From Shewanella seohaensis (GTDB lineage Bacteria; Pseudomonadota; Gammaproteobacteria; Enterobacterales; Shewanellaceae), in the NCBI RefSeq assembly GCF_025449215.1, contig NZ_CP104900.1, forward strand, positions 2,976,001 through 3,040,000: a DNA stretch of 64,000 nucleotides. The letters run 5' to 3'. The notes beneath the pieces were generated by a model. It saw only the letters and a list, made by a program, of their open reading frames with translations, had not been told where the DNA came from and did not search any database. Positions 37,116 to 59,394 of the stretch are shown piece after piece. The position numbers and the translations under genes were made by a program. The first letter of the stretch is position 1, and each line of letters opens with the position of its first letter.

Positions 37116-39928
37116 TCAAGCTAGGCGGTAGCAACGGCCACCCGCCGTTTTGGCTTGATACATCAGTTGGTCAGCTTTCTTCATTAACTCGATGGCCGTA
37201 TCGCCATCGCGGGGATAAATGACCACGCCAATACTGATAGCCACCTCAACAGTCACCCCTTCTATGCTAAAAGGTGACGATAACGAGTGCAGAATATTAT
37301 CAGCAACTTGGGTCGCGGCATCGAGATCTTGCACACGATTTAGCAGGATCACAAACTCATCGCCACCGAATCGTGCCACTGTATCAGAATTGCGAATGGC
37401 TTTGGTCAATAATCCCGCCACTTTTAAAAGCAGTGCATCCCCCACAGGATGCCCATATTGATCGTTAATTTGTTTAAAGCCATCCAAATCGATAAACAAC
37501 AAGGCGAAATGGCTATGATCCCGCCGATGGGCAAGTAAGGCCTGTGACAATCTATCATCCAACAGTGCCCTATTAGGCAACTGGGTTAAGGCATCGTGAC
37601 TAGCAACATGCTGCAAACGCTTTTCGGCGGCAATTCGGCGAGTGATCTCAAGGTTTAAACGACGATTAACGACTAAAACCGCCACCATCACGCCAGATAA
37701 CACTAACGCCCCGAGCAATAAATAACAGATCCATTGCAGATATTGGCTGTTATCCGTCGTCAAAGAAAAGCTCACCCAATGGGAATAGATTTGTTGCTGC
37801 GTATGTTGATCGATTTGCGCCAACACGCGATTAATTAAGGGAACCAACGGTGCATACTGCGGGTTAAGTCCAAAGTGGCTGTGCTGATCGGCTAAGTCAC
37901 TGAGGAGTGACATTTTCAGCAACGGATATTGGCCCGTTTTTAGCTCCGAGGCCAGCGTCACGACCTTATCGATAAACACATCGGCATGGCCATCGTTGAC
38001 TGCCGAGAGTCCCGACTGGGTATCAGGCACCAGCACAAGTTTGAGCGAGGGCTGCAATGCCATCAGTTGCGCCACCAGATGATAGCCCTCCACCACTGCA
38101 ACCCTTTGTCCCGCCAATTGCGCCAGATTAAATACCGAGACTTGCTCAAGCTGCGACACTAAACCCCACGGCGATGGCCAGTAGGGATCGCTAAAGGTTA
38201 AAAATTGCTGGCGCTCGGCGGTTTGAGCAATACTGCCCGCCAGTGCAATCTCGCCTGAACGCAAGGCGCCAATCAGCGAGTGCCAATCGTCAAAGGCGAC
38301 GGGTTGAATATTAATCCGCAGTTGCTCGGCTAGCAGCTGGCTGACATCGCTATTAATACCCGCAAACTGGCCTTGCTCATCGCTAAACTCCATTGGCGGC
38401 CACTGTTTCAAGTAACCGAGTTTAAGCTCACCGAGTTGCGAGAGGTAATCTTGCTCACTGCTTGAGAGTTGAACGCCGTGTAATCCCTTCTGGTTAAAAA
38501 TGCGATCCTTAGGATTTAGCATCCATTTCTGCTCTACTTCGGCAAATTCCTGCATGCTAATACTGCGAAAACCATTAGCAATGCGCTGGGTTAAGCCGGG
38601 ATCGTCACTGCGGGTCAGTACATACACATCGGTCGGAAACTCAAGCTCAGGGTATTGATGAAATTCCGACCAAGCCTTATTTTGCAGCAAATAGTGAGAC
38701 GTCCATGCCCCCGCGGCAACAAAACCTGCAATCTCGCCCGAGCGCGCACCCGCTACCATGCTGTCCATATTTTCGTAATAACGCAGCGTGACATCGGGCA
38801 GCGCTTTACGCAGCGCCACTAAATATGGCGCTGTCGGCACAACACCGATACGTTTGCCTTTTAAACTCTGTAAATCTGTCAGTTGTTGCTGATATAAAAA
38901 CAGCCGACTCTTCACCGTGTAGAGTTGCCATGCGCGGGTTAAGCCGGTTTTCAATTCGTCACTTTCAGGGTAACCAATATGCGCATCGGCTAAACCCTGA
39001 CGCACATCATTGACACTGGCATTCATGTCGCCCGAGATAAAATCCACATTAATGCCGGTCTTCGCCGACCATAGTTGCCAGAGATCCACATAAAATCCAT
39101 GGGGCAAGCCATCGACGCCTAAATCGACAAAGGGCTCAACGCCTAGCTGCATCGCCACCACAAGACCCGCCTTTTGCCCGTGATAGCCTAACCAGCGGCG
39201 CTCGGTTTGTTGCACAAAACGTGCATCGAGTGAATGAAAGCCCTGATTAATCTTCTCGACTAAAGCTTGATTACCTTTCATCACCGCGGGGACAAACTGC
39301 ATGGCCTTGATTGGAATACGCGCACTGATGGGAAAACTGCCCGCAATTGCTTGGCTTGATGCAGGATCGCGCAGATAGCCATCGAGTCCAGCAAAGACGA
39401 CCGTTTCGCCCGCTGCAACACCCGCCAGCAATTTTTCTGGCTTTCATAATATTTGAAGACTAAATTCGGCTCGATACGGCGAAGCTCAGCCTCATGGGAT
39501 GAGCCACTCACAATCCCGATTTGGTAAGGAATAAGTTCCTGAATGGACTTTTTACCCTGCAAGGATTTATGCAGGTAAAGATAGGTACTGACATCGGCGA
39601 TAGGCTCCGCAAAATCAAACAACTGCTCACGCTCGGGCGTCTGCCCCATGCCGATATGCACTTGGGCTTTGCCCTGCTGCAACTGCTGCAATGACTCATT
39701 CCAGTGGCGAGCCACAAACACTAATGGTGTATTGGTACGCTTGCCCCATTCCTTCCACAGATCCACTAATAAACCCGTGGCTTCACCGTCGTTGTCGACA
39801 AACTGATAGGGAAAGCTGTCTTCCCCCATCACCACAATCAGTGACTCAGTCTGTCCTTGACTGGCGTTAACTGCGTTACTGGTGAGTATGCAACACAGGA
39901 TCACGATAAGCTGGAGCACTAACTTCAA
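37116..39928 (-). pseudogene. Diguanylate cyclase with three periplasmic SBP domains, frameshifted
   Basis: Predicted membrane enzyme making cyclic di-GMP in response to a periplasmic ligand. The start is TTG 39928 with AGGGA 6 nt upstream. A signal peptide is followed by three bacterial solute-binding (type 3) domains in tandem (starting near SLIVVMGEDSFPYQF, GLVVAMQLGVEPFVD and LKLGYLKQWPPMEFS). Then come one TM helix (ICYLLLGALVLSGVMVAVLV) and a GGDEF domain with RFGGDEFVILL. An RxxD inhibitory site (RNSD) lies five residues before GGDEF. A 1-nt loss in the T5 run 39432-39436 breaks the frame; adding a base gives YESQKKLLAGVAAGE and about 937 aa. Confidence 0.88.
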
Positions 39929-40076
39929 CTGGGGTCCCTAGTACTTGATGTACAATGTAAATACTTTGTTATTGATGCATATTAGACAGAAATTTCGGGC
40001 AAATTACTAGCTGAGACTTGCTGCTAGTCAACGGGATTCGTTAAAATGCATGGCTGAATTTTCGAGATATTCCCAG

Positions 40077-40808
40077 ATGAACGCTTCCCAAGATACTATC
40101 TACGCTCAAGCGAGCGAACACATTAGCGATTTCCAGTTTGATAATCGTGTCGCGGGTGTCTTTAGTGACATGATCCGCCGCTCGGTGCCTGGCTATACGC
40201 AAATTATCAATACTATTGGCGATTTTGCGGATCGTTTCGTCAAGCCTAATACCCAAGTCTATGATTTAGGTTGCTCTTTAGGTGCTGCCACCTTAAGCAT
40301 TCGCCGTCAAATCCAGGGCCGCGATTGCCGCATTATCGCCGTGGACAATAGCGAATCCATGGTGACGCGCTGCCAAGAAAACCTCAATGCCTATGTGAGT
40401 GATACTGAGGTTGAGCTGATCTGCGGCGATATTCGTGATATTCACATCGAAAACGCTTCTTTAGTCGTGCTTAACTTTACCCTGCAATTTTTACCGCCAG
40501 AGGACAGAGAAGCGCTGATCGCGAAGATTTATCACGGTTTGAATCCCGGCGGTCTGTTAGTGCTGTCGGAAAAAATTCGCTTCGATGATGCGCCTATTCA
40601 AAGTGTGCTCGAAGAGCTGCACTTAGACTTTAAACGCGCCAATGGCTACAGCGAGCTCGAAATCAGTCAAAAGCGCAGCGCGCTCGAAAACGTGATGAAG
40701 CCCGATACCTTAACGCTCCACCAGCAACGTTTGACTCGCCAAGGGTTTAGCCACTTTAGCTTGTGGTTCCAATGTTTTAATTTCTCTTCCATGGTGGCCA
40801 TCAAGTGA
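40077..40808 (+). CDS. cmoA: Carboxy-S-adenosyl-L-methionine synthase CmoA
   Basis: Makes carboxy-SAM from SAM and prephenate for the tRNA wobble uridine modification cmo5U. I start at ATG 40077 ([33 protein letters not shown]), giving 243 aa as usual for the family. The nucleotide-binding motif is [19 protein letters not shown] (about 64-82), followed by [14 protein letters not shown] and the [11 protein letters not shown] segment. The conserved [21 protein letters not shown] is near the C-terminus. cmoB overlaps its stop codon. Confidence 0.96.
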
Positions 40809-41797
40809 TCAGTTTCAGCTCCTTTTACCAACAAATTGCCGATTCCAATTTGCAGCATTGGCTCGAGACTTTGCCAGCCATTCTCGGCAAATGGCAAAGA
40901 GAACATAAACACGGCAACTTACCCAAGTGGGAAAAAGTGCTCAATAAGCTGCACTATCCTGCCCCAGATCAGGTTGATTTTGTCAGCAGTGTCACCGTCG
41001 GCACAGGCGAGCAACTCACGCCCGGCGAAAAGGAAAAGCTTGAGAACCTACTGCGCCTGTTTATGCCTTGGCGCAAAGGCCCTTTCCATATCCACGGCAT
41101 TCATATCGATACCGAATGGCGCAGCGATTGGAAGTGGGATCGCGTGAGTCCGCATATTTCTCCTTTGCAAAACCGCACAGTGCTCGATGTCGGCTGTGGC
41201 AGCGGTTATCACATGTGGCGCATGCTTGGCGCGGGCGCTAAACGCGTGGTGGGCATCGACCCTTCACCGCTGTTTTTGTGCCAATTTGAAGCCGTTAAGC
41301 GCCTAAGTGGTCAAAATCACCCGGTGCACTTATTGCCGCTAGGCATTGAAGAGCTGCCACCACTGGATGCATTCGATACGGTTTTCTCCATGGGCGTCTT
41401 GTATCATAGACGTTCGCCTATTGATCACTTGTTGCAATTACGTGATCAGTTACGTATGGGTGGAGAATTAGTGTTAGAGACTTTAGTAATAGATGGTGAT
41501 GAAAACGCCGTACTCGTCCCTCAAGATAGATATGGGAAAATGAATAATGTATGGTTTATTCCATCCGTCGCGGCCCTAATGCTCTGGCTAAAGAAGTGTG
41601 ATTTCACAGACATACGTTGTGTCGACACCGATGTCACCGCCCTAGCCGAACAGCGCCGAACCGATTGGATGCCGAATGAGTCACTGGTTGAATATCTTGA
41701 CCCTAACGATATCACTAAGACTATCGAGGGTTACCCCGCGCCGAAACGCGCAACGATTATTGCGGTGAAAAATCAACCCAATCAAGATTTGACCTAA
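40805..41797 (+). CDS. cmoB: tRNA U34 carboxymethyltransferase CmoB
   Basis: Transfers the carboxymethyl group from carboxy-SAM to 5-hydroxyuridine 34 of tRNA. The start is GTG 40805 overlapping the cmoA stop (GTGA); 330 aa. An N-terminal extension ([34 protein letters not shown]) leads into the methyltransferase fold. The motif I is [13 protein letters not shown] and [19 protein letters not shown] carries the CmoB residues. The C-terminus has [19 protein letters not shown], a family hallmark. Confidence 0.96.
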
Positions 41798-41880: not shown

Positions 41881-42708
41881 ATGCTAAAGCAGTTGATCGC
41901 TATCGCCGTTGCCAGCAGCTTAATGGGATGCGCAGCGACAGAACCGACCGCCCACGCCCCCACACCACTCGATACTGATACTTTTAATACCCGTCTTAAT
42001 CAGCAGCAAGATCAGTTAGTGGCTGCGATTAATCAGCAATGCCAGCCTGCGGATTTAACCTCGCTTGCGACACTCAACAGCCAAGTCGAGCAGCTAAGTC
42101 TGCAAATCAATCACTTAAATCAAGCGGCGAAAAACCTCACCGCGCAAAAGCAGGCCGCGGTGGTGACGCCTGCGCCGAGCCAATGCCCCAAATCCGCCCT
42201 TGGGGATAAGTTTTTACTCGGTGAAATCGAAAATGTGTTTATCGATGAACTCAATGCCAGTTTTGCCACTCGCATTGATACCGGCGCAGAGTCCTCCTCC
42301 ATCGATGCCCGTAATATCACCCTGTTTGAGCGTGATGGCGCCCAATGGGTGCGTTTCGATGTGTTTACCCAAGGGGAAAAACAGCCCGCGACGAATTTCG
42401 AATCTAAGGTCGTGCGTTTTGTGCGGATCAAGCAGGACGCGAATGAAAAGGACGATCGCCGCCCCGTGATCCACGCGCACCTTAAGATTGGCCAATATTC
42501 CGCAGAGACAGATCTTAACCTCACCGACCGTAGTCACCTCGACTATCCCTTATTGCTCGGCCGTAAATTTATTAAAGATATCGCCGTAGTCGATGTCGGC
42601 CAGCGCTATGTGCACGGTAAAGCCAAACAGCCCAAAGCCACACCCAAACAACCCGATCCTGAGCAACCTAAAGCAGAGTCAGCTATCGTCTCCAGCGGCA
42701 AAAAATAA
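41881..42708 (+). CDS. Retropepsin-like aspartic protease lipoprotein (COG4067/DUF785)
   Basis: Often annotated as 'ATP-dependent zinc protease', though the fold is retropepsin-like. The 275-aa product has a lipoprotein signal with lipobox LMGC (Cys17) and no Asp at +2, so outer-membrane sorting is expected. A coiled-coil stretch (LNSQVEQLSLQINHLNQAAKNL) precedes the protease domain. The catalytic motif is FATRIDTGAESSSIDA (Asp133), and the DYPLLLGRKFIKDIAVVDV end forms the second strand. The C-terminal tail is rich in Lys, Pro and Gln. It begins the five-gene cluster, 83 bp after cmoB. Function is unknown; the family occurs beside ATP-grasp ligases. Confidence 0.87.
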   Translation: MLKQLIAIAVASSLMGCAATEPTAHAPTPLDTDTFNTRLNQQQDQLVAAINQQCQPADLTSLATLNSQVEQLSLQINHLNQAAKNLTAQKQAAVVTPAPSQCPKSALGDKFLLGEIENVFIDELNASFATRIDTGAESSSIDARNITLFERDGAQWVRFDVFTQGEKQPATNFESKVVRFVRIKQDANEKDDRRPVIHAHLKIGQYSAETDLNLTDRSHLDYPLLLGRKFIKDIAVVDVGQRYVHGKAKQPKATPKQPDPEQPKAESAIVSSGKK

Positions 42709-42880
42709 TAACCGCTTGAGCTTATTGGTCTGCCAGCTTGTGACATCGTCGCTCAATCTGACGCAGCCTGACGTAGCTAATACCCGCCACGCGCAATCTA
42801 ACGCGTGACGACGAGTTCGAACCGCTAATGCCGGGGTAATCCCACGCTTTTCGGCCATTGGCGCAACAAGGGAAACACGT

Positions 42881-44389
42881 ATGCATTCACGTAAACCTTT
42901 TTACATTTTGGTGGCATTACTATTTATTGTCGGTTTAAGTGCCAGCATCTATCGCGGCGTTAAGCATCAAGTGCCTTTTCTCCCCGGCGAGCAAGTGCAA
43001 AGCTGGGCGGTAGACGCCAAGATAAGCTTCGATGGCACAGGGGATGCAGCCGAAGTGTCCTTCTCTTTACCACAGGATCCCGCCTATGAAGTCTTGGTCG
43101 AGAACGCCAGCTCCCCAGGCTTTGGGCTGTCACTGAGTGATGATAAGGACGCGCGCCGTGCCAATTGGTCGATTCGCGAGGCCTATGGCAGCCAAGATCT
43201 CTATTATAAAGTGACCCTAGTGCCGACGGGCGTGACCCAAATCCACAGCGACGATATCCCCAGTCAACCAGAGCCTTACCTCTGGCCCGCGACCGAGAAG
43301 ACCGCCGCAGAGCAAGTAATTAACGAAACCTGGGCGCGCAGCGCATCGAACTTGTCCTTCGCACAGCAATTGATGAATGCAATCACGGCCACTAAGCGCA
43401 GCCAAAATATGGAGCTGTTGCTATCGAGCCAAACCGCGACGCAAGTGTTTTTGCATATGCTGCAAACCAAGGGCATTCCCGCCCGTGAAGTCAGTGGACT
43501 CTACCTTGAAGATCAGCGCCGCCGTCAATCCCTGTCGCCCTTTGTGGAAGTGTTCCATAACGGCGATTGGGTCTTGTTCGATTTGGTTAAGGGCAAGCAA
43601 GGCCGACCAGAGAACTTACTGCTGTGGGAACGTTCGGGCCATTCCGTGCTCGATGTGATGGGCGGAGTGAACTCGCAGGTGCATTTCTCGATGTTGCAAG
43701 ACACCCGCTCGGCATTAGCGACATCAATCGATATGATGATGAATAACAATGCCTTGGATTTTTCACTCTACCAATTACCGCTAGAGGAACAGAGTCTATT
43801 CAAGGGCATTTTATTGATCCCTATCGGGGTGTTGATGGTTGTGTTTTTACGGGTGATCATTGGGGTGAAAACCTCAGGCACCTTTATGCCTGTCCTTATC
43901 GCCCTCGCCTTTATTCAAACCAGTTTAGTTACGGGCTTAGTTGGCTTCTTACTGATCGTGGCCTGCGGCTTGATGATCCGCTCCTACTTATCCCAATTAA
44001 ATCTGTTGCTGATCTCGCGAATATCGGCGGTGATCATCGTCGTGATAGGCATTATCGGGGTCTTTACCTTGCTCTCCTATAAGTTTGGTTTAAGCGAAGG
44101 ACTGACGATTACCTTCTTCCCGATGATTATTTTGGCGTGGACCATCGAACGTATGTCTATCCTGTGGGAAGAAGAAGGCCCGAAAGAAGTGATAGTGCAA
44201 GGTGGTGGTAGCCTAATGGTCGCCACCCTCGCCTACTTAGCCATGAGCGCAAGTTGGGTACAACACTGGGTCTTTAACTTCCTTGGGATCCACTTAGTGA
44301 TCTTGGCCTTAGTGCTATTAATGGGCCAATACACAGGTTATCGCCTACTGGAACTCAAACGCTTTAAACCACTCGCGGGGGATGCCTAA
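42881..44389 (+). CDS. Inactive transglutaminase fused to seven TM helices
   Basis: The 502-aa product has an N-terminal TM helix (FYILVALLFIVGLSASI), a periplasmic transglutaminase-like domain (about 30-290) and a seven-helix membrane domain (about 305-480). In the transglutaminase region the segment SQTATQVFLHMLQTKGIPAREVSGLYL aligns with the catalytic Cys helix but has no cysteine. The catalytic His position reads SPFVEVF; only the Asp-like FDLV remains. The domain is thus probably a peptide-binding module. AAGGGA lies 8 nt before the ATG. The TAATG junction joins it to the ATP-grasp gene. This pair recurs in many Gammaproteobacteria. Confidence 0.88.
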   Translation: MHSRKPFYILVALLFIVGLSASIYRGVKHQVPFLPGEQVQSWAVDAKISFDGTGDAAEVSFSLPQDPAYEVLVENASSPGFGLSLSDDKDARRANWSIREAYGSQDLYYKVTLVPTGVTQIHSDDIPSQPEPYLWPATEKTAAEQVINETWARSASNLSFAQQLMNAITATKRSQNMELLLSSQTATQVFLHMLQTKGIPAREVSGLYLEDQRRRQSLSPFVEVFHNGDWVLFDLVKGKQGRPENLLLWERSGHSVLDVMGGVNSQVHFSMLQDTRSALATSIDMMMNNNALDFSLYQLPLEEQSLFKGILLIPIGVLMVVFLRVIIGVKTSGTFMPVLIALAFIQTSLVTGLVGFLLIVACGLMIRSYLSQLNLLLISRISAVIIVVIGIIGVFTLLSYKFGLSEGLTITFFPMIILAWTIERMSILWEEEGPKEVIVQGGGSLMVATLAYLAMSASWVQHWVFNFLGIHLVILALVLLMGQYTGYRLLELKRFKPLAGDA

Positions 44390-45333
44390 TGAATATTGCT
44401 TGGCCATGGGAGCTTCGCGCGCGCGGCGTGCTCAATATGAATAAGCGCAATATCGATTACATTGGTCGCTATAACCCGCGTAAATTTTATAAACGAGTGG
44501 ACGATAAGCTGCTCACTAAACAGTTGGCACTGGCCAATGATATTGCCGTGCCCGATTTAATCGCCGTTGTGCGTGAGCAGCACGAAATCGTGCATATTCC
44601 CGAGCGCGTTAAGGGCCGCACAGGGTTTGTGATCAAACCTGCCAAGGGCTCTGGTGGTAAAGGCATTTTAGTGATCACCCATATCGAACAGGGCCGTTAC
44701 TATAAACCCAGCGGGCACGAAGTCAGCCCATCGGAATTGGATAGACACGTGTCCAATATCCTCAGCGGCTTATTCTCCCTTGGCGGCAAACCCGATGTGG
44801 CGATTGTCGAGGGACTGATTGAATTCGATCCCGTGTTTGACGGTTACAGCCATGAAGGCGTGCCAGATATCCGCTTGATTGTCTTTAAAGGTTTTCCGGT
44901 AATGGGGATGCTCAGGCTCTCCACCGCCGCCTCCGATGGTAAGGCCAATTTGCACCAAGGCGCCGTAGGTGTGGGCGTTGACATTGCCACGGGAAAAGGG
45001 TTACATGCTGTGCAATTTGATGCTCCAATTGAGTTTCATCCAGACACAGGCAAAAAGCTCACCGATATCGTCGTCCCCCACTGGGAAAGCTTGCTGCATA
45101 CCGCATCGAGCGCATATGAAATGTGTGAGATGGGTTACTTAGGCACGGATATGGTGCTTGATCAGACTAAAGGCCCGCTGTTATTGGAACTCAATGCACG
45201 CCCGGGACTGGCGATCCAGATTGCAAATGGAAAAGGCATTTTGCCTAGACTTAAGCATGTCGAAGCCATGTCATCCCATTCAATGACAGTTGCAGAACGT
45301 GTAGCCTATGCAAAAATCCATTTTAACGGCTAG
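44389..45333 (+). CDS. ATP-grasp alpha-L-glutamate ligase-like protein
   Basis: The 314-aa cytoplasmic protein has the ATP-grasp fold: N-terminal MNIAWPWELRARGVLNMNKRN, the ATP-binding lysine and glycine loop TGFVIKPAKGSGGKGILVI (about 82-100), VAIVEGLIEFDPVFD and the metal-binding LLLELNARPGLAIQIANGKG (about 265-285). It should form an amide bond between a carboxylate and an amine, as RimK does. The substrate is not known. The start codon shares one base with the upstream stop (TAATG). Confidence 0.88.
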   Translation: MNIAWPWELRARGVLNMNKRNIDYIGRYNPRKFYKRVDDKLLTKQLALANDIAVPDLIAVVREQHEIVHIPERVKGRTGFVIKPAKGSGGKGILVITHIEQGRYYKPSGHEVSPSELDRHVSNILSGLFSLGGKPDVAIVEGLIEFDPVFDGYSHEGVPDIRLIVFKGFPVMGMLRLSTAASDGKANLHQGAVGVGVDIATGKGLHAVQFDAPIEFHPDTGKKLTDIVVPHWESLLHTASSAYEMCEMGYLGTDMVLDQTKGPLLLELNARPGLAIQIANGKGILPRLKHVEAMSSHSMTVAERVAYAKIHFNG

Positions 45334-47214
45334 CCTGTTTGGCTGGTGTTTATCCTCCTCGGTGCAGCCTATGCTGCGCCAAGTCCTGTGCCGCTGCTGG
45401 TAGAGCAGTGTTTGCGCCAACCCAATATCGATTTGGCAGGCGCCTTCGCCAGTTACGCCAGCACCCACCAGCTCCCAAGCTTAACATTGGCGGATAAAGC
45501 CCTAGTGTTAGAGCAGCAAACCATTGGGCTGAATAATGTCAACGACAGACTCACCTACTACCGAGGTTTGCCGTTGTCGGGGGATGAGCGCCAAGGTTTA
45601 CTGCAGTGTCAGTTGCGCTTGGCCGATACTCTGAGCGATTTGCTAAACCAAGCAGCATTTAGCCAACTGGCGTTTGAGCTGACGCAAACAGCATCGATAA
45701 ATCATGCTGCAGCAAGTCAAGAACAGGCCTTACTCGGCGAGCAATTAACGGCGTTATTGCGTCAACATTTATCCATTATGGATAAAGCCAAGCTGCACAC
45801 GGCGCAGGCCAGCATTCGCCAAGGTTTAGGTAACCAGCAATTCCAACTGGATATTCAAGCGGCTAACTGCCAGCTCACGGATGAAGTAGCGGAGGTTAAT
45901 ACAGCCAATAACGAGGAAGAAACGGCAAATTCGGGCACTTTCTCAGGGACTATCGCCAATTACCTGTTAAAGCAATCCAATGCCGAATGTCGGCAAACCC
46001 TGTGGCAAGCCTATCAAGGTCGAGCCAGGGAACATAATCAAGTCGCCTTACACCGTATTGCCGAGCTACGCCAACGCATTGCCAATGACGCAGGTTTTAG
46101 CGATTACGCCAGTTACAGCCTCAGCGATCAGCAACTCAATACCCCGGAATTAGTTAAAGCCTTTCTCGATAGCCAAACCGAAGCGATTCAAGTTGCCCCT
46201 TGGGATCTTGGCCGTACCTTATCGCAATTACCCAGTGCGCAAACCACCGCTCTCAATACCCGAGAGCTGCTCGACAACGCCTTAACAAGCTTAAGCGAAT
46301 ATGGTTTACGTTTTGAGGTGATTGGCGAGCATCTAGACTCGACAGCTACTCAAACAACACTTTCTCAAACGGCACTAGCACAAGCGCAGCAACAAATCCT
46401 CCGCGTTTACCATATGGATAGATTATTGGGAGAAGTGTATCTGGCTATCGGCGCTCAAGATAAAGTGAATAAACCTAGGAATGCCAGTCAACACACCCTC
46501 AGGCAAAATGTGATTGGACAGCAATTTGGTCAACAGGCGCTTGAGCTCCCCGCGACACTCAATAATTTCAAAGATATCGAACGCTTTACCCAAGCCCTCG
46601 CCGATGCAATGACCTCACTAGCGCGCGGCAGTCATTTTTACCTTAATAACACCTTAGGCCCGACGCTCGATACCACTCAATTACCGAGTTTTTGGCTCGC
46701 TAAGGCGTTACGCCAAGCGCTATTTCCCCAATTTGATACTCAATATATTCAGCCGAGGGAAACGCTCGCAAGCGCCTATGCGACGCAGCTTAAAGTCTTT
46801 CGCGCTAAGGTGGCACTTAACTTTTACCAGTCCTTAAACCAGCAAAGCTATCCGGATCTGCCTGCGGAGTTTAGCAAAAGCTTTGGGGCGAACTGGACAC
46901 AAGCGATTGATTACCCATACAGTTTCAATGCTATCGCCAACGAAGGCCCGCGTTATTATCAATCCCTGTGGCAAGCCAAACTCGCAACGCTTGTCCATCA
47001 ATCCACCCAAGACTGCCAAGATAAACTTGGGCTTTTTAATCTCCTCGTGGTCAATGAGACCGCACTCACCTTGAGCGAGCAACTGCGCGTCATACTTGGC
47101 GAACCCGTGGATGCCGCTGCGCTTATCCAAAGGATTATCCATGTCTCAGGATCTGAAAATCACCCATACACCACAACCGAAACACAAACTCACACTACCC
47201 ATTGCGCTTTTTAG
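45308..47214 (+). pseudogene. Exported M3-peptidase-like protein lacking the zinc motif, frameshifted at the signal peptide
   Basis: ATG 45308 starts MQKSILTASLFGW; one base (about 45344) is then missing, and the main frame continues as VFILLGAAYAAPSPVPLLVEQC. Restoring one T gives the signal peptide MQKSILTASLFGLVFILL with AYA cleavage and a protein of about 635 aa. REHNQVALHRIAELRQRIANDAGFSDYASYSL looks like the helical M3 (thimet oligopeptidase) fold. No HExxH occurs anywhere in the protein; the expected place reads FTQALADAMTSLARGSHFYL. It is probably a periplasmic binding or scaffold protein. It overlaps both neighbours and closes a five-gene run. Confidence 0.6.
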
Positions 47215-48339
47215 CGGTTTAGCCTTCTTTACCGCACAAAGTGCTTTCGCCAACACGCAAAGCTCCCCCTAAGTCACGCTGGGCTTGAGTACTCACAAAA
47301 GGTACTCAAGTCAAACGTCGCAGATAAAACCGAATTAAGCCAAAGCGACGTTGCGCAGCTTATTCAACAGAACCTTGAAACCCATCTCTATACACTCCCG
47401 CCTCGGGTGCAGGGCCATTATGGGATCCGCCTCTATCGCCTGACGGGCGATGAGCAATATGCTAACGCGGCGTTAGTCGATCTTTATGCGGTAACCGAAG
47501 CTCAAGCGTTTTATGCCTGCCAAATGGATAACCCTGAGTTTGTTCGCCAAGCCTCACAGAACGCCATCGCCGAACTGGGCAATGGTCCCAGAGCCAAGGC
47601 CCGTAAAAAAGCACTCGCACCCTTTCCTGAGTTTTTATTTTACTCCGATGTGCTATTGCGATTTGCCAGTCGAATCGATGAGTTAGGCTTTACAGGTCCT
47701 TGCCATAGCCAGATGATCCAAGCCCTTAAAAAGGCCGACTTACGACAAGGTTTGACCGATCCCGCGATGATAAAAGCCTGGGCGGCGCAGCTAATTAACT
47801 ATGTGTATTGGGCCAAACAATTGGGTGTAGGAGATTATCTAGAGGACTATAAAACAGCGTTTACTCGGGTTTATCCTGATTCGCAGGATGCCACACTCAG
47901 CAAAGCACAGTTTCGTAATAAGCTCTACGGCATGACGCATTTTATCTTTGCCGCGAGTGAATATTATCAGCATCGGGTGGATGCCACTGAGTTTGCATGG
48001 ATTTTGGACTACTTTGACGCCAACATTGAGCGAATTTTACAGGATGCGACTGACGATATTATTGCCGAAGTCGGCATTAGTTTTCTGCTAGCGGGCAAGA
48101 CAGACCATACTGTCGTGGCTCAAACTCGGACTTATATTGCCAATTCGTTCGACCCTGATAGTCAAATTATCCCCTCACCCAAGGGCAATCCTGACTTAGC
48201 CCTTGGCGAGCATCGCAATGTGCTTGCGATAATGTTGCTTAATTGGCCAGAAACGCTCTATCCCGGCCCCTATCTTAACGAACTTAACGCGACGAAAAAG
48301 TATTTACCTATGGGCGTCACTCCTAAGGTTATCGATTAA
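47141..48339 (+). pseudogene. Exported protein of unknown family, frameshifted
   Basis: ATG 47141 has a perfect AAGGA 6 nt upstream and overlaps the end of the M3-like gene by 74 bp. Residues 1-37 are a signal peptide (KLTLPIALFSGLAFFTAQSAFA). The frame breaks at the C5 run 47265-47269. One extra C gives SSPLSHAGLEYSQKVLKSNVADKT, continuous with the 310-codon frame and a protein of about 399 aa. The mature part is mostly helical, with Tyr-rich segments (YGIRLYRLTGDEQYANAALVDLYAVTEAQAFYAC; MTHFIFAASEYYQHRV). I do not recognise the family. It ends before a terminator, so it is the last gene of the cluster. Confidence 0.65.
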
Positions 48340-48409: not shown

Positions 48410-48513
48410 CAATTAACAGGATAATAGTATTGAAAAAACGATCATAGCTCGCCACTATAAGCCTCAATCTATCGCTTTTTTAGAAACCTGTCGTTTTCGA
48501 CATGAGGACAACC

Positions 48514-49416
48514 ATGACTCGCGCGAAATCCACCCTTGAGCAATGGCGTATTTTACAGGCTGTCGTCGACTATGGCGGCTACGCGCAGGCGGCAGAAAAG
48601 CTCAATAAGAGCCAATCCTCACTCAATCATGCGGTGGCTAAGTTACAACACCAGCTCGGTATAGAACTACTCGAAGTTCGAGGCCGCAAAGCTTACCTGA
48701 CACCACAGGGCGAAGTATTATTGCGCCGTTCGCGCCATGTGACCCAAGCGGTCAATGAGTTAGAACAACTCGCTAGCAACCTTGAGCAAGGTTGGGAGCC
48801 CACACTTACCATTGCTCGCGAAATCGTCTATCCGATGGAAAGTCTAGTGTGCGCACTAAGTGACTTTTTGCCCCATAGCCGCGGCACTCGGATCATTATG
48901 TTGGACTCAGTCATCACAGGTACTCAAGAATTAATCCTTCAAAATAAGGTCGATATTGCAATTTGCGCCGGAATTCCACCGAAGGGCTATTTATCCGAGC
49001 CCCTGTGTGAACAGGAGCTGCATCTGGTTTGCCACCCGAGCCACCCCTTGGCTGAAATGGGCACCTTAGACGATGACAAGCTACTAGCGCAGCACCTGCA
49101 ACTGGTGATCAAAGACACGGGCCTGCAACCCAATGTTGATATCGGTTGGTTGAAGGCCGAGCAGCGCTGGACAGTATCGAACTTCCATGAGGCGAAAGTC
49201 ATTTTAAATCAGGGCATTGGTTTCTGCTGGATCCCATCTTTCCTTATCCAAGAGGAATTAGCCGCAGGTAAACTAGTGCGCTTACACCTCCAAGGCAGTC
49301 AGAAACGGCGGATTATGCTAAGCCTAGTGATCCCAAATCGTGACCAACAGGGCCCAGCTTCAAAACTGCTGGCCTCTTATCTCCTCAAACATCATGGTGT
49401 GAGTACAAGCGATTAA
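48514..49416 (+). CDS. LysR-family transcriptional regulator
   Basis: I start at ATG 48514 (MTRAKSTLEQWRILQAVVDYGGYAQAAEKLNKSQSSLNHAVAKLQHQLG), since AGGA lies 5 nt upstream; 300 aa. The N-terminal winged helix is at 1-65, followed by the dimer helix (RSRHVTQAVNELEQLASNLEQG) and a periplasmic-binding-like effector domain (TLTIAREIVYPMESLVCALSDFL...DIAICAGIPPKGYL). The effector is unknown. It stands between the envelope cluster and the convergent SprA-related gene and has no divergent partner, so its target is not evident. Confidence 0.88.
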   Translation: MTRAKSTLEQWRILQAVVDYGGYAQAAEKLNKSQSSLNHAVAKLQHQLGIELLEVRGRKAYLTPQGEVLLRRSRHVTQAVNELEQLASNLEQGWEPTLTIAREIVYPMESLVCALSDFLPHSRGTRIIMLDSVITGTQELILQNKVDIAICAGIPPKGYLSEPLCEQELHLVCHPSHPLAEMGTLDDDKLLAQHLQLVIKDTGLQPNVDIGWLKAEQRWTVSNFHEAKVILNQGIGFCWIPSFLIQEELAAGKLVRLHLQGSQKRRIMLSLVIPNRDQQGPASKLLASYLLKHHGVSTSD

Positions 49417-52124: not shown

Positions 52125-53240
52125 TTAACCCGCAATCCAAGCCGATTCCCAATCCTTAAAAACCGGATTAAATCCCCGAAGGCGCATCTGAGTCATGACT
52201 TGCTCAACGGTACGTTCATCGCTTATCTCAAACTGATCTAATTGGCTCTCTGGCGCCTGATAACCACCAGGTTGCGTTGAACTCCCCGCACTCATTTGTG
52301 TTATCCCAAGTGGCAGTAAATTATCCCGAAGTGATGGCGCCTCGCGTGTCGATAAACTGATATCAAGTTGCTGATTAAAAAGCCTGAAGGCACAGATCAA
52401 TTGTACCAGTCCAAGATCGGTTAAATGCACTTTTGGTGTTATGCCGCCGGTACAAGGCCGCAAACGAGGTAACGAAATACTAAAGCGAGTCCGCCAATAA
52501 TGCCGTTCTAAATAGTCCAAATGATGCCCCATCAGTAAGGCATCGAGTCGCCAGTCATCCAAACCCAATAACACGCCTAGGCCAATCTTATCGACACCTG
52601 CGCTGGCAACGCGGTCGGGCGTTGCGAGCCGATACGCAAAGTCCTGCTTATTGCCTCGGGTGTGATGCTTAGCATAGGTCGCCGCTTGATAGGTTTCCTG
52701 ATACACCATCACAGCATCAAGCCCTAGCTCGACAAGCTGGCGATAATCAATCTCTTCAAGCGGCTGAACCTCCATAGCCAAATAACTAAACTGCTGTTTT
52801 ACAATGGGTAACACGCGCTTAAAGTAATCTATCCCCACTTTGGTTTCATGCTCACCCGACACCAGTAAGATGGAGTCAAAACCACGGGATTTAATAATCG
52901 CCATTTCGGCCGCAATTTCCTGCTCATTGAGCACTTTACGCTTTAACTTATTGCTCATGCTAAAGCCGCAATAGTCGCACTCGTTGGCACACAGATTTGA
53001 CAGATATAACGGCAAATAGAGTCCAATATTGGCCCCAAAGCGTTGCCGAGTGAGCGCCGCCGAGCGCTGCGCCATCTCTTCGATATAGGGCTCTGCTGCT
53101 GGAGACAACAAGGCGAGTAAACTCTCTAGATTACCCTCGGGTTGCATCAGGGCGCGCTCAACCTCCGCTGCCGTGCAGGAATATAACGCCAGCAATAACT
53201 TATCCCGTTCAATGCGGGCAAATTGGTCGACAAAACTCAT
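52125..53240 (-). CDS. thiH: 2-iminoacetate synthase (tyrosine lyase) ThiH
   Basis: Radical SAM enzyme splitting tyrosine to dehydroglycine and p-cresol for the thiazole. The 371-aa product has the 4Fe-4S motif [11 protein letters not shown] (about 87-97, CxxxCxxC). [14 protein letters not shown] and [17 protein letters not shown] are ThiH-type, and the C-terminal biotin/thiamin-associated domain has [17 protein letters not shown] and [12 protein letters not shown]. Its start overlaps thiG by 4 bp. It is the last gene of the thi operon. Confidence 0.95.
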
Positions 53241-59219: not shown

Positions 59220-59300
59220 TTACGGACTCAATAACGACTAAATCGATGGGTTAATACAGGGCAAAAGGTGGCCGCTGATACGATTTAATGGATGTTATTA

Positions 59301-59394
59301 TGCTTGTTTCCTTCGCAGGTTTTAACCTGATCAGGTTCAACGGATCCCGAATAAACGGTCTCAGCCAAGAGGCACTCCGACAAGATGGGCAAAA
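59301..59394 (-). promoter_or_regulatory. TPP riboswitch (THI element)
   Basis: On the minus strand the aptamer starts near GTCGGAGTGCC, contains the conserved core GGCTGAGA and then GGGATCCGTTGAACCTGATCAGGTTA before CCTGCGAAGGAA. These are the hallmarks of the thiamin-pyrophosphate aptamer. It lies about 170 bp upstream of thiC and should lower expression of the whole operon when TPP is high. Confidence 0.95.

Follow-up and report, generated by a model that had tools for sequence, protein, structure and literature searches.

The window analysed here, a 64,000-nucleotide stretch of the Shewanella seohaensis genome (contig NZ_CP104900.1, positions 2,976,001 to 3,040,000), contains five plus-strand genes at 41881-48339 that lie between cmoAB and a lysR gene, and on balance we consider it probable that they constitute an extended rlo operon. 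In such an operon, the products of rloABC would be joined by two exported accessory proteins in a periplasmic peptide processing, one being an M3-like protein (M3L) that would have turned from an oligopeptidase into a peptide binder, and the other a DUF3541 protein that would act as Rlo partner.

Linkage of the five genes

Gene order was compared in surveys with one genome per species, covering a sample of the order and a sample of the class (the codes G, L and f denote genomes, loci and families, and g295 a genus). A search for related loci returned 44 loci, all from Shewanella. What is new is the linkage of all five genes, which is found in the order cmoA-cmoB-rloA-rloB-rloC-M3L-DUF3541 in 34 of these 44 loci, and also in four genomes of two other families, as G049, G439 and G475 (f15) and G531 (f6) have the order rloA-rloB-rloC-M3-DUF3541-DUF3541. 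In G531, both DUF3541 domains are encoded by one open reading frame (ORF) of 701 residues (L155:7007-9112), directly after an M3 gene that bears an HExxH motif. Likewise new is a linkage of rloC with M3L in two more genera, g295 (G765 and G782, i.e. two of its three genomes) and the genus of G479 (f20), where rloABC-M3L stands without DUF3541. Altogether, five genera from four families have M3L behind rloC, mostly with a start that is able to overlap rloC. The arrangement cmoA-cmoB-M3L-lysR, lacking rloABC as well as DUF3541, occurs in 10 of the 44 Shewanella loci. Linkage of the distal genes beyond close relatives had been chosen beforehand as the point at which the single-pathway idea of the preliminary description could fail; the comparison was carried out and did not refute the idea, as the five gene families are linked in f15 and f6.

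The rloABC trio

By their sequences, the first three genes are homologues of RloA, RloB and RloC. The rloA-like gene (41881..42708, +) encodes a predicted lipoprotein with a retropepsin-like aspartic protease domain (PF05618, 131 bits); its N-terminus is lipobox-like by eye, and the active-site motif DTG is present in 37 of 37 aligned copies. The product of the rloB-like gene (42881..44389, +) is a presumably inactive transglutaminase fused to seven transmembrane helices (PF14402, 362 bits; PF14400, 177 bits), in which the expected Cys (184-185) and His (219-220), at what we take to be the motif positions, are absent in all 37 aligned copies. The rloC-like gene (44389..45333, +), which overlaps rloB by 1 bp as had been described, encodes an ATP-grasp or alpha-L-glutamate ligase-like protein (PF14397, 327 bits; TIGR02291, 448 bits with a cut-off of 314). 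These assignments agree with the initial view of a retropepsin lipoprotein, a dead seven-helix transglutaminase and an ATP-grasp ligase. The NCBIfam models for RloA1-3 match the first gene below their cut-offs (at best 107 of 250 bits), and the RloB model remains with 317 bits under its cut-off of 900, and the claim is therefore limited to homology and gene order and does not extend to the named equivalogs. A 2009 paper on amidoligases is said to contain an earlier prediction on this kind of trio.

The window genome has a second retropepsin, which is encoded outside the window (G000:C1:3380375-3381184, minus strand, locus L002) and is lipoprotein-like by eye. Two retropepsin domains, each with a DTGA motif, follow one another in this protein, which could work as a single-chain dimer.

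Under the name rloABC, such a trio was described from Pseudomonas aeruginosa in 2025 (PMC12239564), and in the literature searched, the Rlo names were found together in this single paper. In vitro, according to that paper, the RloA protease cleaves Glu runs with a length of 8 or 10 residues but not those of 6 or fewer. A mutant without its three RloA proteases does not grow in low salt and has defects in shape, biofilm formation and antibiotic response; deletion of rloB or rloC in that mutant restores growth in low salt and, in part, the other traits. For mutants in rloB or rloC themselves, milder defects are described (PMC12239564). Order and domain composition of the first three genes, the signal peptide of RloA and the dead seven-helix transglutaminase are shared with P. 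aeruginosa, whereas M3L and DUF3541 are additional in the operon of the window, and the main text of that paper contains no word starting with "oligopeptidase", "metallopeptidase" or "DUF". The ribosome modification system rimBK/RimABK also pairs a retropepsin with an ATP-grasp protein (PMC12239564), but its RimB is a cytoplasmic protein with RpsF as target, while the retropepsin of the window is a predicted lipoprotein with a seven-helix partner. In Shewanella vesiculosa HM13, the disruption of hm2192, which by annotation encodes an RloB-type protein, resulted in 1.9-fold more and larger vesicles, and the hyper-vesiculation hits of that study include, besides the inactive-transglutaminase protein with seven transmembrane helices, an M3 peptidase that is homologous to Dcp (PMC12096838).

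The M3-like protein

M3L (45308..47214, +, with the in-frame body from 45346) belongs by its fold to the M3A peptidases of the thimet oligopeptidase type. On the sequence level, this is barely visible: the match to PF01432 reaches 27.4 bits (cut-off 27) in a short stretch only, and the match to M3A oligopeptidases is restricted to a single segment (E 5e-7). The AlphaFold2 model of the window protein, however, is confident (predicted local distance difference test, pLDDT, 85; predicted template modelling score, pTM, 0.86), and its best PDB matches in Foldseek are thimet oligopeptidase and neurolysin over the whole length (E 2e-15, template modelling (TM) score 0.66, root-mean-square deviation 6.9 Å). 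M3L thus shares the full-length fold with thimet oligopeptidase, neurolysin and OpdA, but the Shewanella proteins differ in that they lack HExxH as well as the distal Glu and are predicted to be exported. None of the 63 Shewanella M3L ORFs (from 62 loci, with three genomes represented twice and one gene split into two) has an HExxH motif, nor does any of the 6 copies in g295 and f20. The motif is present in all four copies that are linked to rlo in f15 and f6, as well as in all four canonical M3 controls. A Glu follows 29 residues after the first His in all eight HExxH-bearing proteins, which we take to be the spacing of thimet oligopeptidase.

In a tree of 22 proteins, M3L is separated (100/100) from the canonical M3 proteins, which with four sequences are a small outgroup, and all dead M3L copies form one clade (96/93), and therefore a single loss of catalysis is to be assumed. 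Together with the HExxH motif in the f15 and f6 operons, this dead clade leads to the view that the Shewanella M3L is, as judged from its residues, a pseudoenzyme that arose from a secreted oligopeptidase encoded in the rlo operon itself. The description as an M3-like protein without HExxH thus holds for the window, and "two catalytically dead enzymes" is correct there, but the M3 homologues of f15 and f6 have kept the zinc-ligand residues. Of the four f15/f6 copies, three were scanned with the Pfam model for M3 and scored 137-153 bits. Two f20 copies reached 59 and 39 bits, the window protein 27 bits and that of S. xiamenensis 22 bits, and the single g295 copy scanned had no match at E 0.01. 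Four Cys residues are invariant across 12 dead and intact copies, which is in keeping with a putative export of M3L.

Could the Shewanella M3L simply be a functionless gene in decay? It is the fastest-evolving gene of the cluster, with ratios of nonsynonymous to synonymous substitution rates (dN/dS) of 0.09-0.31 in 17 pairs as compared to 0.01-0.08 for cmoB, it is frame-shifted in the window assembly, and it is split in L109. Nevertheless, these ratios indicate purifying selection, apart from these two cases the M3L frame is uninterrupted in all loci that were inspected, and it was found in all 30 genus genomes within the order survey (counts in this survey are lower bounds, as at most three candidates were scored per genome, and G049 was missed). 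With 34 invariant columns in 25 sequences and a confident full-length fold, we regard decay as very improbable. When 45 sequences are aligned, 38 columns are invariant despite the loss of the zinc ligands, and such conserved residues might also mark a new site, if the dead M3 fold had gained another activity or a non-peptide ligand. By eye, no new catalytic motif could be recognized, and such a change of function appears quite improbable to us.

The DUF3541 protein

The fifth gene (47141..48339, +, in-frame body 47272-48339) had been described as belonging to no recognised family, which was wrong: the protein matches the whole domain PF12060 (DUF3541) with 480 bits, far above the gathering cut-off of 28.2. 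Its AlphaFold2 model is all-alpha (pLDDT 89, pTM 0.87). What is new here is that DUF3541 was found only together with RloB in the genomes surveyed. Among the 394 genomes of the order survey, DUF3541 is present in 63 and RloB in 199 (198 of these above the family cut-off), and all 63 carriers have RloB. In the class survey, DUF3541 occurs in 3 of 369 genomes including the window genome, and the other two, G240 and G422, have RloB as well, with the DUF3541 of G422 being a 52-residue fragment. On the genus level, all seven DUF3541 genera fall within the 36 RloB genera of 114 (hypergeometric 2e-4, a value that ignores kinship). The locus data point in the same direction: when the 44 loci are supplemented by 13 added loci and the window, 40 of these 58 loci have rloB and DUF3541, 13 have neither, 5 have rloB only, and none has DUF3541 only, so that DUF3541 is absent from 13 of the 13 loci without rlo.

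The two genes need not be neighbours. In those loci of f11, f12 and f21 (the latter presumably Vibrionaceae) that were retrieved, DUF3541 stands alone and away from rlo. Fourteen of the 15 stand-alone copies, including two from Shewanella, group in a clade of their own (100/100), and the copy of G240 lies outside of it on a long branch. No family recurred in more than 4 of the 15 neighbourhoods of stand-alone copies. In the literature searched, there was no text with DUF3541, and the results listed included no account of M3L or DUF3541 as members of an rlo operon. DUF3541 gains a first functional context here.

A possible mechanism

The operon structure, the homologies and folds, the missing catalytic residues and the co-occurrence of DUF3541 with RloB were computed; from these, we infer a substrate, a direction of flow, the activity of the f15/f6 proteins, peptide binding by the dead M3 proteins and a role of DUF3541 as follows. 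RloC would make or attach an acidic peptide in the cytosol, RloB would present this peptide or move it across the inner membrane, and the lipoprotein RloA would be the periplasmic protease that cuts it. In an ancestral version of the pathway, which likely still exists in f15 and f6, a secreted M3A zinc oligopeptidase would then digest the short fragments. In Shewanella, g295 and f20, where the zinc ligands were lost, M3L most likely binds peptides and may serve as receptor, carrier or regulator. DUF3541, a predicted periplasmic all-alpha protein that would be useful only where RloB exists, could be a partner that acts on the Rlo product or its target. The preliminary idea that the cluster serves to make, export, hold and cut a peptide fits the cutting of poly-Glu by RloA and the rescue by rloB or rloC deletion (PMC12239564), while the function as such is one that we infer. 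A more specific version is a two-step periplasmic cascade, in which a retropepsin and then a thimet-type oligopeptidase act on a non-ribosomal acidic peptide that is made by RloC and passed on by RloB, and in which the second protease of Shewanella and its kin has become a dead receptor that reads the peptide together with DUF3541; this version we put forward tentatively, as a possibility with the odds against it.

Instead of making a peptide, RloB and RloC could modify a polymer of the wall or the surface, which would then also be the target of the distal proteins. The phenotypes of cell shape, biofilm, wall-antibiotic response and vesicles (PMC12096838, PMC12239564) could be explained in this way, and the weak, non-significant fold matches of DUF3541 include helical toroids and solenoids (top TM score 0.44 among the 50 matches listed), with a resemblance to helical toroid glycosidases and lyases. 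We nevertheless consider a polymer unlikely, as RloA cuts poly-Glu in vitro (PMC12239564), and as the f15 and f6 operons encode an M3 oligopeptidase homologue with zinc ligands. It is this same-operon homologue with intact zinc ligands in other families that points to a peptide as Rlo product. The RloB/RloC product is of interest for the phenotypes in biofilm formation, tolerance to wall antibiotics and vesicle release; the preferred substrate of the putative f15/f6 enzyme could reveal that product, and the dead M3L is a possible bait for capturing the peptide.

Weighing the evidence

Several points weigh against an extended operon for peptide processing. Foldseek returned no match for DUF3541 at E 0.001 or better. 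The hm2192 disruption is a single crossover without complementation and may be polar (PMC12096838); in Shewanella, polar effects on the distal genes may occur in every mutant with an insertion in rloB, perhaps also in the published mutant. The co-occurrence of DUF3541 with RloB in 63 of 63 genomes is confounded by kinship, with only 7 genera involved, and 136 of the 199 RloB genomes have no DUF3541. Five of the 58 loci carry rlo without a neighbouring DUF3541, and in G001 (L111), G003 (L110) and G035 (L109), which are counted as rlo-bearing, stops or frame shifts break the rloB frame in the assembly, with DUF3541 being open. On the cmoAB tree, rlo changes four times and DUF3541 follows about three times (sign test, p 0.25), and because changes on this tree are so few, a co-loss of rlo and DUF3541 is suggestive only. 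As to M3L, a strong match was found in 3 of 60 RloB genomes outside Shewanella (G049, G479 and G531). These 60 genomes consist of 58 from the order, out of 175, and of 2 from the class, and leave out the carriers G439, G475, G765 and G782; as the M3L profile with f15/f6 sequences matched something in all 60, matches were judged by score only, and the next best one, with 107 bits and in longer ORFs, was taken for OpdA. With strong matches in so few RloB genomes, M3L must be regarded as a rare addition to rlo, and since most RloB genomes lack DUF3541, and most of those searched lack a strong M3L match, neither of them is a core Rlo part.

Moreover, M3L is retained without rlo and without DUF3541 in 13 of the 58 loci, and three f20 genomes (G443, G462 and G495; L219, L220 and L221) have a dead M3L and no RloB match. 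M3L therefore must have some use that is independent of rlo, and its tie to the trio, which the linkage in other genera supports, is not an obligatory one. It is conceivable that M3L is a hitch-hiker of the operon with its own envelope function, unrelated to the Rlo product, and that only DUF3541 takes part in the Rlo pathway. This would explain why M3L stays alone between cmoB and lysR after the loss of rloABC and DUF3541 (10 of 44 and 13 of 58 loci), and why it is still under purifying selection without rlo (dN/dS 0.094-0.188 in five pairs). M3L does, however, stand behind rloC in five genera of four families, with an HExxH-bearing version between rloC and DUF3541. A pure hitch-hiker is not expected to be retained for so long in one slot, and we regard this possibility as rather doubtful.

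Frame shifts in the assembly

In the assembly of the window, the signal-peptide regions of M3L (ATG at 45308) and DUF3541 (ATG at 47141) are in another frame than the bodies of the proteins. In comparison to the near relatives G024 and G015, in which both distal genes are intact, there is a one-base shift within each of the two signal-peptide regions. Further single-base losses relative to G024 recur across the window, several of them in G/C runs, in addition to indels of both kinds in diverged stretches, and an error of assembly (base calling) thus appears likelier than biology for both frame shifts. Phase variation was considered and rejected as the less likely cause, for the same reason and in view of the intact relatives. 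No base was restored, and the in-frame bodies of M3L and DUF3541 were used in all analyses.

The described overlaps of 26 and 74 bp begin at just these ATGs and are, in this assembly, out of frame with the bodies of the fourth and fifth gene, but in relatives, namely in each of the 36 Shewanella loci with rlo that were examined (the 34 named above, G024 and G015), both distal genes have an in-frame start that is able to overlap the upstream gene. A strong N-terminal hydrophobic stretch was found in 43 of 46 M3L and 35 of 36 DUF3541 proteins with a crude, self-set cut-off, which is not a signal-peptide predictor. As nearly all copies have such a stretch, both families are likely exported, and the earlier assignment of two exported proteins is thus likely correct at the family level.

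As a separate observation, a gene for a transporter-domain/diguanylate cyclase protein (by eye) at 37116-39928 (minus strand) is split into two overlapping ORFs, with a one-base difference to G024 near 39438.

Borders of the locus

The left flank consists of the tRNA modification genes cmoA-cmoB (40050..41797, +), which match as CmoA and CmoB equivalogs and are found upstream in 44 of 44 loci, and therefore form a conserved left border. The right flank is a gene for a LysR-type regulator (48502..49416, +; PF03466/PF00126), which is the usual right border and was not seen in 11 of 44 loci, 2 of which end at a contig end. The five genes indeed form a cluster, beyond chance by conserved synteny. 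A scan for promoters and terminators gave 8 promoter-like sites where 9.7 were expected, and 15 terminator-like sites where 9.6 were expected (standard deviation 3.7), one of them at the rloC-M3L junction (45327-45347). A phage origin of the distal genes was rejected, as a PHROGs search with them gave no match. Further downstream, the window contains a TPP riboswitch at 59291-59389 (minus strand, 71.9 bits), and a minus-strand ORF at 52125-53240 resembles what we take to be ThiH.

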